From IMG/VR virus record IMGVR_UViG_3300023179_000473, positions 1 through 25,295 of that record: DNA of 25,295 nucleotides; one strand, given 5' to 3'. Positions 12,023 through 17,111 of this stretch are shown piece by piece. The position numbers and the translations under genes are program-made. Below the pieces are notes generated by a model. The model did no database searches and had not been told where the DNA came from. It saw only the letters and a list, made by a program, of their open reading frames with translations. The first letter of the stretch is position 1. Every line of letters starts with the position of its first letter. Source of the DNA: a virus.

Positions 12023-12442
12023 TTGCCAGTTCTCGAAAACCGCAAGCAAGAGCTATACGCTCAAGGCCTCGCTAGGGGGGAACCCCAGATGAAGGCCTAC
12101 GAAAACGCGGGATACAAACCGCTGGAAAGTGCGGCGTCGAGGCTGGCAAGTCAGGTTAAGGTGCTCGCGCGCGTTCGCGAATTGCAGGCAGCTTCGGCAG
12201 AGCGGGCCGAAGTGACGGCGGCGGAATTGTCTGACCAGCTCGAAGACATCCGCAAAAAGGCCCTCGAAGCGAACCAGATGGGCGCCGCCGCTCAAGCCGT
12301 CATGGGCCGGGCCAAACTGCACGGCCTGATCATCGACAAGGCCGAGGTCAAGGACGTTACCCCGATTGATCCCGCTGCACGCCAAGCGGAGATTGACCGG
12401 CTTCTAGCCAAAAGGGGCGGCCATCTCCGTGCTGTCTCCTGA
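12023..12442 (+). CDS. terS: Terminase small subunit
   Basis: 139 residues starting with a TTG codon (MPVLENRKQELYAQGLARGE). The N-terminal HTH pattern, KQELYAQGLARGEPQMKAYENAGYKPLESAASRLAS, is the family signature of small terminases that recognise the packaging site. A coiled-coil-like stretch (about 50-95) would drive ring assembly. There is no in-frame ATG until codon 23, which would delete the HTH, and GAGG sits 6 bases before the TTG, so the TTG start is preferred. It overlaps the large subunit start by 14 bases, the usual TerS-TerL order. Confidence 0.88.
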   Translation: MPVLENRKQELYAQGLARGEPQMKAYENAGYKPLESAASRLASQVKVLARVRELQAASAERAEVTAAELSDQLEDIRKKALEANQMGAAAQAVMGRAKLHGLIIDKAEVKDVTPIDPAARQAEIDRLLAKRGGHLRAVS

Positions 12443-13979
12443 GGAAGAGGAGCGCCTTTATCGGCTGCTGGTTGATGAGGACACCTATCAGGCCGGGCGC
12501 AAGCTCTGGACTTATTACCCGGACGAGGGGCCGCTTAGGCGGGAGCTATACGCTAAGCACATCGAGTTTTTCGCGGCGGGTGTGAAATACAACGAGCGGG
12601 CGGCTCTGGCCGCGAACAGAGTCGGAAAATGCATCACGATTGACAGTCGCATTGAAACGCCTGATGGCGAGTTGACTGTCTCGGAATTGATGGATCGCGG
12701 GCCTGGATTGGTTTGGGCGTGGGATGGCAACAAGCGCGTTGCGGCGATGGCAACCCGGCCATTTAGAAAGGCCGGGCTGCATGAATGCTACCGCCTTACG
12801 TTTGCTGACGGTCGATCCCTAGAATGCGCAGATCATCATCGGATTTTATGTGTCGATGGATGGCGGCGGCTTTCCGAACTCCTAAAGCAATTCGCTCCTG
12901 ACCTTCCGGCGTCCAGTTTGGACACCTGCCAGTCAATTCCGCCCGAAGGTGATCGGCATTGCTCTGGAATAGCTCCAGATTGTCAGGGTGATTGTTCTGG
13001 GGATTGCCGTCGAGGTGGTGAACGACCTCTGAGCGTTCGAGATAGCGGCCTAGCTTCGCCTCCATCACAAGGCGATGCTCGGCAACACGGCGCTGTTTCG
13101 TGCGGTTCGGATGGTCAGGGGAATAGATATACCAATAGCCCCCAAGAAGGAGGCGCCCTCCTTTCCAGTCAGGATGGCCCGCTCCTGCCCGTGGGCCGGT
13201 TCTCTGGGTCTTCCATCCCTGTTGTATCGCCCATCGACCGACGACGCCTCGGCCAATCCCTAGAAGCGCCTCAACGCTTCGCTGGGTCATCTGTTCTTCT
13301 TCCACAAGGCGGCGAGCCTCGGCAACAATCTCGGGGCTGGTCTTTGCAGGCATTTGAGGCGGTCCTATCGGTTGCGGGAAACCGCATTATATCATGCGTT
13401 CCGGTTGGCGCGAAACCAGTTTATGACCTGACGGTTGACGGGCTGCACAACTACATTGCCGGCGGCATTGTGCATCACAACACCGAGGGCTTGGGGGCTT
13501 TCGAGGTCACGCTACACCTGACGGGTCTATATCCCGATTGGTGGCTTGGCCGGCGATGGGATCGGCCCATCAACTGCCTAGCGGGTGGCGACACGGCGAC
13601 GACGACGCGGGATATTCTTGTCGCCAAGCTACTAGGGCCACGGGAGGCCAGGGGGACCGGCATGATCCCGCGCGAGGTTCTGGGCAAGCCGGTTCCGGCG
13701 CCGGGTATCCGAGACCATGTGGATTTTGTAAAGGTCAAGCATACGTCGGGCGGTTTCTCTACCCTGCAATTCCGTTCCTACGACCAAGGGCGCGAGGCGT
13801 GGCAGGGAACGGAACGCGACATCGTTTGGATGGATGAGGAGCCTCCGGAAGCCGTTTACACCGAGGGCCTTTTGCGGACGATGACCACGCGCGGCATGGT
13901 GATCTGCACGTTTACGCCGTTGAATGGCCTGACTGACGTGGCGCTTTCGTTCATGCCGGAACTGGCCGGGGCCGCATGA
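12429..13979 (+). CDS. terL: Terminase large subunit, packaging ATPase part, interrupted by an intein
   Basis: 516 codons from a GTG start. Residues 1-67 and 352-516 form the N-terminal ATPase of TerL; residues 68-351 are an intein. Spliced, the P-loop reads AANRVGK+TEG, and Walker B appears as IVWMDEEP in the C-extein, followed by the coupling motif TFTPLNG. The spliced product would be 232 residues. The frame then ends at ELAGAA, exactly where the nuclease domain should begin; that domain is in the next frame (13976-14704) with an ATGA overlap. The ATPase drives DNA translocation into the prohead through the portal. Without intein removal the P-loop Lys and Thr are separated and the motor should be dead. 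Two-polypeptide TerL versus frameshift cannot be decided by eye. Confidence 0.9.
   Translation: MLSPEEEERLYRLLVDEDTYQAGRKLWTYYPDEGPLRRELYAKHIEFFAAGVKYNERAALAANRVGKCITIDSRIETPDGELTVSELMDRGPGLVWAWDGNKRVAAMATRPFRKAGLHECYRLTFADGRSLECADHHRILCVDGWRRLSELLKQFAPDLPASSLDTCQSIPPEGDRHCSGIAPDCQGDCSGDCRRGGERPLSVRDSGLASPPSQGDARQHGAVSCGSDGQGNRYTNSPQEGGALLSSQDGPLLPVGRFSGSSIPVVSPIDRRRLGQSLEAPQRFAGSSVLLPQGGEPRQQSRGWSLQAFEAVLSVAGNRIISCVPVGAKPVYDLTVDGLHNYIAGGIVHHNTEGLGAFEVTLHLTGLYPDWWLGRRWDRPINCLAGGDTATTTRDILVAKLLGPREARGTGMIPREVLGKPVPAPGIRDHVDFVKVKHTSGGFSTLQFRSYDQGREAWQGTERDIVWMDEEPPEAVYTEGLLRTMTTRGMVICTFTPLNGLTDVALSFMPELAGAA
12796..13353 (-). CDS. HNH homing endonuclease encoded antisense inside the intein
   Basis: 185 residues on the strand opposite to terL. 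Residues 5-45 form an HTH-like segment (SPEIVAEARRLVEEEQMTQRS, then VEALLGIGRGVVGRWAI). Residues 73-135 are an HNH_3-type nuclease: GYWYIYSPDHPN, AEHRLVMEAKLGRYLE, EVVHHLDGNPQNNHPDNLEL, DH. The catalytic set is present (H93, H112-H113, N116, N121, N125, H135). A conserved-looking tail CPNWTPEGQERI follows. It lies between intein blocks B and F, where a homing domain is normally fused in sense; its last about 25 codons are antisense to block B. AGGA is 9 bases before the ATG and TGATATAAT lies further upstream. Expected role: cutting intein-less terL to spread the element. Confidence 0.88.
   Translation of the reverse strand: MPAKTSPEIVAEARRLVEEEQMTQRSVEALLGIGRGVVGRWAIQQGWKTQRTGPRAGAGHPDWKGGRLLLGGYWYIYSPDHPNRTKQRRVAEHRLVMEAKLGRYLERSEVVHHLDGNPQNNHPDNLELFQSNADHLRAELTGRCPNWTPEGQERIALGVRKAAAIHRHIKSDDDLRILGIDRQQT
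13386..13394 (-). promoter_or_regulatory. Extended -10 promoter element for the antisense HNH gene
   Basis: On the minus strand this reads TGATATAAT, a perfect match to the extended -10 consensus TGnTATAAT, 33 bases before the HNH ATG. Only a weak -35 (TTTCGC) lies 18 bases upstream, but extended -10 promoters tolerate that. The same bases on the plus strand encode Ile-Ile-Ser of intein block F, using an ATA codon unusual for this GC-rich genome. Confidence 0.55.
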
Positions 13980-14704
13980 AGTGGGCCATCGGCATAACCT
14001 GGTCGGACGTTCCACACCTATCCGCAGAGGATAAGGCCAGCCTCTGGGAAAGCATCCCGCCTCACCAAAGGGACGCGCGGGCCAAGGGCATTCCGGCGCT
14101 AGGCTCTGGCGTCATCTACCCGGTGAGTGAGGATGTTTACCTAGTCGATCCGTTCGACCTTCCACCGCATTGGCCTCGGGCCTATGGCATGGACGTGGGT
14201 TGGAAGCGCACCGCTGCGCTTTGGGGGGCTTGGGATCAAAGCCAGGACATCATCTATCTTTATTCCGAACACTACATGAGCGAGGCCCCTCCGCAGGTTC
14301 ACGCGGACGCGATCCGGGGCCGGGGCTCATGGGTTCCGGGCGCGATTGACCCGGCGTCTTCAGGGTCTAGCCAATTCGACGGCAAGAAGCTGATCAACGA
14401 GTATCGCTCGCTAGAGCTGGACCTTGCCTTGGCTGACAACGCAGTCGAGGCGGGGCTTCACGCGGTTTACCGGCGCTTGGTCTCTGGCCGGCTCAAGGTG
14501 TTTAGGACGCTGAATAGCTTCCTTTCGGAGATCAGGCTTTATCGGCGCGATGAGGCCGGAAAGATTGTCAAGGAGCGGGACCACCTGATGGACTGCCTCC
14601 GCTATCTTGTGATGTCTGGCATGGCTCGGGCCACGACTGAGGCCCATGCCAACTACGACGACCACCAGGCCCCGGAAGGCCGCGACAGAGTGACGGGGTA
14701 TTGA
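13976..14704 (+). CDS. Terminase large subunit, nuclease part (separate reading frame)
   Basis: 242 residues starting MKWAIGITWSDVPHLSAEDK. This is the RNase H-fold nuclease of TerL: RDARAKGIPALGSGVIYPV links from the ATPase, then GMDVGWKRTAALWGAWD near 74-90 carries the first catalytic Asp, PGAIDPASSGSSQFDG near 122 another acidic residue, and ERDHLMDCLRYLVM near 206-219 the last Asp. It cuts the concatemer at the start and end of packaging. In related terminases this domain is fused to the ATPase. Here its ATG overlaps the ATPase stop (ATGA), shifting frame by -1. The sequence is intact, so it is probably functional as a coupled second subunit. Confidence 0.88.
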   Translation: MKWAIGITWSDVPHLSAEDKASLWESIPPHQRDARAKGIPALGSGVIYPVSEDVYLVDPFDLPPHWPRAYGMDVGWKRTAALWGAWDQSQDIIYLYSEHYMSEAPPQVHADAIRGRGSWVPGAIDPASSGSSQFDGKKLINEYRSLELDLALADNAVEAGLHAVYRRLVSGRLKVFRTLNSFLSEIRLYRRDEAGKIVKERDHLMDCLRYLVMSGMARATTEAHANYDDHQAPEGRDRVTGY

Positions 14705-16722: not shown

Positions 16723-16762
16723 AGACTTTTGCGCCATGAATGGCGAGCAACCCGAGGACTAG
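16520..16762 (+). CDS. Small phage protein overlapping the portal 3' end, TTG start
   Basis: 80 residues starting at a TTG codon (MTLEDWEGWRAHPMTQWVMR). The body is helical with a W-x(3)-HP-x-T-x(2)-V pattern, then LKVRADSFLALSQSSFEDF, a make-up I associate with small proteins found next to phage portals. AGGAG at 16509-16513 is 6 bases before the TTG, an ideal ribosome site lying inside the portal gene. It shares 203 bases with the portal in another frame; there the portal reads Gly/Pro-rich low-complexity sequence, suggesting the small gene is the more constrained of the two. Function unknown. Confidence 0.7.
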   Translation: MTLEDWEGWRAHPMTQWVMRALESAAETQKLAWVQGTWDQGQSPDPLILTELKVRADSFLALSQSSFEDFCAMNGEQPED

Positions 16763-16763
16763 A

Positions 16764-17111
16764 ATGGGAATGATCCCGAAACTGGAAGACTGCAAGCCGG
16801 GTTTCTATCCGGTGGAATACAACGTGATTATAGCCCCCGAGGAGATGGAGAGCGTCACCAAAGGCGGGATTATCCTCGCTGATCGGACGAAAGAGAGCGA
16901 GGAACTGGCCCAGGTGCGCGGCCTTCTGGTCGATGCATCCCCGCTGGCGTTCAATTTCGACGACTGGCCTGCCGGCACGTCTGACCGGCGCCCGAAACGC
17001 GGCGACCATGTGATCTACGGCAAATACGCCGGAATCCTGATCAAGGGCGACGACGGGCGCGAGTATCGGCTTTGCAAGGACAAGGACATAGCGGCGGTCA
17101 TCGTCGCGTGA
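16764..17111 (+). CDS. Phage GroES-like co-chaperonin
   Basis: 115 residues of the Cpn10 fold: GFYPVEYNVIIAPEEMES, the mobile-loop region VTKGGIILADRTKESEELAQ (compare the KTxGGIVLP of GroES), VRGLLVDASP, then RPKRGDHVIYGKYAGILIKG and a final strand DKDIAAVIVA. GroES caps the GroEL folding chamber; phage versions (T4 gp31 is the classic case) help fold the major capsid protein. The ATG at 16764 has GAGG 6 bases upstream; a further ATG lies two codons on. Its place between portal and scaffold/capsid genes fits that role. An insertion between VDASP and RPKRG makes it slightly longer than bacterial GroES. Confidence 0.88.
   Translation: MGMIPKLEDCKPGFYPVEYNVIIAPEEMESVTKGGIILADRTKESEELAQVRGLLVDASPLAFNFDDWPAGTSDRRPKRGDHVIYGKYAGILIKGDDGREYRLCKDKDIAAVIVA

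Follow-up and report, generated by a model that had tools for sequence, protein, structure and literature searches.

A Phage Terminase Intein with a Probable Homing Endonuclease Gene on the Opposite Strand of Its DNA

Introduction

Inteins are taught as single proteins in which the splicing and nuclease parts are fused, the large ones containing an in-frame homing endonuclease that is of the LAGLIDADG or sometimes of the HNH type. The window analyzed here, i.e. the whole 25,295-nucleotide stretch of viral DNA from the IMG/VR record IMGVR_UViG_3300023179_000473, raises the question of whether the two parts can also be encoded separately, on opposite strands of the same DNA, as was proposed in an earlier, sequence-only reading of its terminase (TerL) gene. 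The answer that emerges is that the locus very likely represents a mobile intein whose homing endonuclease is encoded by a complete gene of its own, lying antisense within the intein. At the level of sequence, this is supported by the two reading frames themselves, the conservation of their layout, purifying selection on the opposite strand, the enrichment of expression signals, and the existence of presence/absence alleles.

The Intein in the TerL Gene

The features of the locus are as follows (coordinates are those of the window):

12429..13979, plus strand: TerL N-terminal (ATPase) open reading frame, 516 aa (Terminase_6N, phrog_31467), with Walker A split by the intein
12630..13481, plus strand: intein, 284 aa (Cys1...His283-Asn284; +1 Thr) (TIGR01445/TIGR01443, PF14890)
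12630..12899, plus strand: N-terminal Hint part, blocks A and B (AlphaFold pLDDT 93-98 for residues 1-80, 82 for residues 81-90)
12796..13353, minus strand: HTH and HNH_3 endonuclease gene, 185 aa, start at 13353, stop codon at 12798-12796 (Pfam, PHROG)
12900..13379, plus strand: sense linker with predicted disorder, for the most part complementary to the HNH gene (AlphaFold pLDDT about 42-63)
13363..13366, minus strand: AGGA, a weak Shine-Dalgarno-like site ahead of the HNH start
13380..13481, plus strand: C-terminal Hint part, blocks F and G (...HHN) (pLDDT 92-98; TIGR01443)
13386..13394, minus strand: TGaTATAAT, a promoter-like element of the extended -10 kind and perfect in sequence, with the HNH start codon (ATG) 32 nt downstream
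13976..14704, plus strand: TerL nuclease half, a separate open reading frame (Terminase_6C, phrog_5653), a natural split

The sense frame of the ATPase half runs straight through the intein uninterrupted by stops. The 284-aa insert is placed between the K and the T of the TerL Walker-A motif (AANRVGK|T), with Cys as its first residue (12630) and HHN as its last ones (13481), followed by Thr. The closest TerL relative of the window (L206, 90%) is empty precisely at the intein junction, its in-frame site reading AANRVGK|TEG without interruption. Matches to the NCBIfam intein N- and C-terminal models, to PF14890, and to the DnaB mini-inteins of the PDB are confined to both ends of the insert, and in an alignment of 51 inteins the residues C1, H70, V269, and N284 are invariant. 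The sequence criteria for an intein, namely a nucleophile at residue 1, the block-B His, the C-terminal His-Asn, and a +1 residue (Thr in the window), are thus satisfied. The Hint fold is further supported by AlphaFold models, made from alignments assembled in this analysis with two phage-collection rows omitted from each, in which both ends reach pLDDT values above 90, and by Foldseek, which led to DnaB mini-inteins (TMt 0.75). The proposed contiguous sense-frame intein with Hint blocks is borne out by these results, with splicing activity itself remaining an inference.

Between the Hint ends lie some 155 residues that are predicted to be disordered, with AlphaFold pLDDT values of about 45-55. 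No nuclease domain was matched by domain models in the sense frame of the intein, in agreement with the original reading, and the idea that the linker is a degenerate nuclease was rejected, given the lack of a domain match and its disordered model.

The division of TerL into ATPase and nuclease halves, whose reading frames overlap by ATGA, is common to the window and several of its nearest relatives (L206, L208, L214, and L215), while in others the gene is contiguous. Further downstream, in the phage structural region of the window, a GroES-like co-chaperonin gene is predicted (16740-17111; phrog_3188, E 1.4e-11).

The Antisense HTH-HNH_3 Gene

The minus-strand gene is contained entirely within the intein DNA, antisense to TerL. 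Its product matches Pfam HNH_3 (PF13392; E 4.9e-11) and the PHROG HNH endonucleases (E 4e-25), and the HNH_3 catalytic residues are present, with H113 and N121 invariant across the family alignment. The AlphaFold model is confident (mean pLDDT 89), its N-terminal helical part being the HTH. The 185-codon HTH and HNH_3 gene described from the letters alone has been confirmed. Foldseek returned only weak matches for this model (DeoR HTH, I-HmuI), and a PDB sequence search with the protein gave no match. The gene had been placed between blocks B and F, but it is not confined to that interval: its 3′ end extends into block B and includes the codon of the invariant His70 (12837-12839).

Distribution of the Antisense Arrangement

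A profile of six HNH homologues, constructed without reference to inteins, retrieved 540 relatives from IMG/VR, of which the best 80 were kept, and in 80/80 of these the HNH lies antisense within a long open frame, in one relative phase. A second scan, with a profile from divergent members, found that same phase in 72/72 newly fetched loci, some of them on contigs already met in the first scan; together the two scans yield about 100 distinct sequences as judged by sense-linker identity. The sense intein alone, used as a query against IMG/VR, retrieved no sequences, which is explained by the lack of conservation in the linker, and a plasmid search gave no match.

The host gene is TerL in most loci, but the antisense-HNH inteins also occur in a Strawberry-notch helicase (L097) and a primase-helicase (L091), always in the P-loop at neighboring positions (GK|T, GNR|SGK, and GxG|SGK), with the HNH type partly following the insertion position. 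Two inteins that are 50% identical and have sister HNHs (L048 and L054) occupy sites within one P-loop that differ by three codons (GNQ|SGK vs GNQSGK|T), which is an insertion-site shift. Some inteins have unusual C-termini (HKN, NRN, or QKN) and may splice poorly.

Among the named carriers are the Pectobacterium phages Koroua, Amona, Taid, Pappous, Sabo, Ymer, and Abuela, Dickeya phage Setonix, and Pseudoalteromonas phage PHS3. In the isolated Pectobacterium phages, the interrupted TerL is the only TerL recognized in the stretches examined. The records of these phages annotate the long CDS and lack the HNH, while that of PHS3 (L008) has the HNH annotated but the TerL cut off, the gene call having gone to the antisense HNH, whereas the TerL frame really continues through the intein. 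This amounts to an annotation blind spot, in that only one gene of the two is labeled in the records examined, the HNH being missed or the TerL shortened.

Dual-Strand Coding and Selection

In the relative phase shared by the two frames, any HNH dicodon of the form NTT-A, NTC-A, or NCT-A produces a sense stop, and an HNH Phe followed by Ile, Met, Thr, Asn, or Lys is therefore forbidden. In a set of 58 non-redundant loci, the number of sense stops is 0, whereas permutation of the synonymous codons of each HNH predicts about 268 and gave no fewer than 236 in any of 200 runs; the number of forbidden dipeptides is likewise 0, compared with 27.8 expected. Free-standing HNH relatives, which served as controls, contained 102 such stops vs 108 expected and 12 such dipeptides vs 10. 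The 58-locus set had been prefiltered for a long sense frame, a filter that discarded none of the best 80 loci.

The same dual coding is reflected in the substitutions among close relatives. Of those in the C-extein, 71-90% are found at sense position 3 in the two largest clusters, while of those inside the overlap 55-73% are found at sense position 2, which is the wobble position of the HNH. A fine profile of 22 haplotypes places the flip of this periodicity near intein residue 81 and its return near the C-terminal block. The switch from position 3 to position 2 shows clear purifying selection on the HNH frame and a sense linker whose main constraint is to remain open.

The earlier reading had named several outcomes that would refute it, and none of them came about. 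The linker does not behave as a conserved domain, having low identity among relatives, the low pLDDT values given above, and a concentration of its substitutions at sense position 2; selection on the HNH is not lacking, as the codon-position substitutions indicate; and the sense frame is never broken. The HNH frame is broken only in L046, by an internal stop, and in L043, near the contig end, with the sense frame open in both, as the model allows. The L046 allele (L046:2534-3040) would fit a nuclease in decay with splicing preserved, but its stop may also be a sequencing error. Selection maintains two proteins on two strands of the DNA, even where the codon of a splicing His that never varies and a putative promoter have to be accommodated in the sense frame. 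These loci are a natural system for studying antisense gene overlap.

Expression Signals of the Antisense Gene

Signals upstream of the antisense start were compared with a null model in which the sense codons were resampled synonymously, i.e. with the sense amino acids controlled for. Shine-Dalgarno-like sites are present in 37/57 loci, against 16 (maximum 24) under resampling, and a perfect extended -10 element (TGnTATAAT) in 9/57, against 0.7 (maximum 4), its position being 29-32 nt upstream of the HNH start in many loci. In one cluster, the 60 nt upstream of this start are nearly frozen at all codon positions. A two-hexamer sigma-70 scan of the window found nothing, with no -35, and missed the extended -10 of the window, which was recognized by direct reading of the region. 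Weak points of the promoter reading are that the perfect -10 occurs in only 9 of the loci and that the Shine-Dalgarno site of the window is weak. Expression of the antisense HNH separately from TerL, as had been anticipated, is supported by these Shine-Dalgarno and promoter signals; there are no transcription data, and antisense transcription is inferred.

Mobility and Alleles

Among the close relatives of a lake-phage TerL, about 51 of 80 are empty and about 21 have a 295-aa antisense-HNH intein, and others have a 136-aa mini-intein without HNH at the same site, which according to the alignment is a distinct, clearly diverged lineage. Relatives with and without the antisense gene at one insertion site, which the earlier reading had suggested looking for, have thus been found, and the mini-intein alleles lend support to its suggestion that the nuclease can be gained or lost without breaking splicing, splicing being inferred. 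In the pair L075/L077, the intein is almost identical while the exteins differ at 22% and 12% of third positions; in other pairs, from an 885-nt cluster, divergence of the N-intein often equals that of the extein, the HNH and C-terminal Hint part being less diverged and younger. Conversion tracts accordingly vary in these sequences, and what moves may in some cases be less than the whole intein. The criterion for mobility by a homing endonuclease, i.e. allele polymorphism together with extein/intein discordance, is satisfied, and because near-identical TerLs occur empty, with the mini-intein, or with the antisense-HNH intein, there is strong comparative evidence that the last of these is mobile.

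Alternative Explanations

The same alleles could also mean that the HNH is a second-tier selfish element, which homes by itself into inteins, with a mini-intein as its target, and is not the engine moving the whole intein into empty genes. HNH-less mini-inteins at the same site in near-identical TerLs and the lower divergence of HNH and C-terminal Hint part in the 885-nt cluster would be explained in this way, but L075 and L077 share the whole intein, N part included, despite their diverged exteins, the mini-intein lineage is distinct, empty alleles are common, and the HNH type partly tracks the insertion position. This reading is considered unlikely, though homing of the second-tier kind remains possible. 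Considerably less probable still is a role of the HNH as a packaging factor, akin to the free-standing HNHs adjacent to terminases, with its location in terL being regulatory and not selfish: most of the loci are within terL and some phage terminases are known to have HNH partners, yet the gene is missing from most near-identical TerL alleles, is found in the two helicase hosts as well, and, in common with homing nucleases, includes a DNA-binding HTH part.

A fractured terL gene, in which split-intein halves would flank a free-standing endonuclease, shares its components with the locus (Hint halves, an endonuclease gene of the free-standing type, and terL), but it was ruled out, the sense frame being open in the window and in every antisense locus although stops would be expected, and hardly any credence is left to it. 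The least tenable of all, with a probability close to nil, is a chance antisense frame over an ordinary degenerate intein linker. Long antisense frames are indeed frequent in high-GC genes, but loci of 32-41% GC, HNH homology, antisense codon-position selection, and the enrichment of Shine-Dalgarno and promoter signals all speak against it; it was ruled out by the stop-avoidance and codon-position tests.

Proposed Mechanism

In the preferred model of a mobile intein with a nested antisense endonuclease, the TerL precursor would be translated in sense straight through the insert, following which the Hint ends, bridged by the disordered linker, would fold and join the TerL parts by splicing. The putative promoter and Shine-Dalgarno site in the block-F region, on the other strand, would drive the HTH-HNH endonuclease, which most likely cuts intein-less P-loop alleles, with repair then copying in the whole insert; such empty-site cleavage is inferred. 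Production of the nuclease early, ahead of the late TerL protein, is an attractive rationale, its advantage likewise being inferred. The model would explain how the nuclease of an intein can be produced independently of a host protein that is made late, and how its loss can leave splicing unharmed, and it suggests the class as a source of disordered-linker inteins for engineering.

Relation to Known Systems

The antisense-HNH intein shares with large inteins the Hint ends, the placement of a nuclease between blocks B and F, target sites in conserved active-site motifs, and presence/absence alleles, but differs from them in that their nuclease is fused in sense, whereas here a separate protein with its own start signals is encoded on the opposite strand and the sense linker is not a nuclease; the criterion of a canonical fused endonuclease is thus failed. 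One TerL (L189:2279-4909) is empty at the P-loop, but its nuclease domain contains an intein of the canonical LAGLIDADG type, encoded in frame. The nested homing endonuclease genes of group I introns are similarly located in a splicing element and separately expressed, but they need not leave a protein frame open, whereas in the window intein both strands code. Fractured genes with split inteins and free-standing endonucleases were reportedly described by Dassa et al. in 2009; they have in common with the window a free-standing endonuclease located at an intein, but are broken in two there, while the host gene and intein of the window are contiguous.

The closest prior art is the ShiLan domain, a same-strand HNH in the “third frame” of a phage methylase gene, without a splicing domain or a detectable RBS (Arsenault et al. 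2025, PMC11855218). Both cases have a mobile HNH hidden in another frame, with the host frame left open. The window does not meet the ShiLan-type criterion, in that its HNH is antisense and situated in a real intein, with a Hint domain and with Shine-Dalgarno and promoter signals.

Searches of the open-access literature, whose scope did not extend to the actinophage preprint of Gosselin et al. from 2025, turned up no endonuclease gene lying antisense within an intein. That preprint is said to deal with actinobacteriophage inteins of “non-canonical architecture”, is cited for overlapping reading frames, and constitutes the main risk to priority. The sequence-only reading had regarded the arrangement as apparently undescribed, which holds for the literature searched; it is, however, widespread and not unique to the window. 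There is a good, though lesser, likelihood that the loci make up an undescribed and widespread class of P-loop phage inteins having an antisense nuclease with its own promoter, in which nuclease production, possibly early, is separated from late-protein splicing and in which the hiding of nucleases out of frame evolved repeatedly, twice in antisense, with different nucleases and phases, and also on the same strand.

Independent Out-of-Frame Nucleases in Inteins

The HNH tree including free-standing relatives is poorly resolved, and a single origin of the antisense state is for that reason neither shown nor excluded. The TerL intein of Escherichia phage BUCT618 (OM735461; L359:2020-2691) has an antisense NUMOD4-HNH_3 open reading frame, in a different phase (codon register) and at a site outside the P-loop. 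This is a second antisense case, apparently of independent origin, and TTA, CTA, and TCA codons are absent from it (P about 0.009). In Mycolicibacterium phage phi1_186018 (PP947710; L009:1023-1478), a same-strand out-of-frame endonuclease VII frame overlaps the TerL intein, which is the likeness to the “non-canonical” actinophage inteins. With these two cases and that of L055, the out-of-frame arrangement seems, on comparison of the loci, to have arisen repeatedly. The L055 TerL has two inteins, the first with an antisense HNH and the second with a same-strand out-of-frame HNH_3 frame (L055:1241-1852, minus strand).
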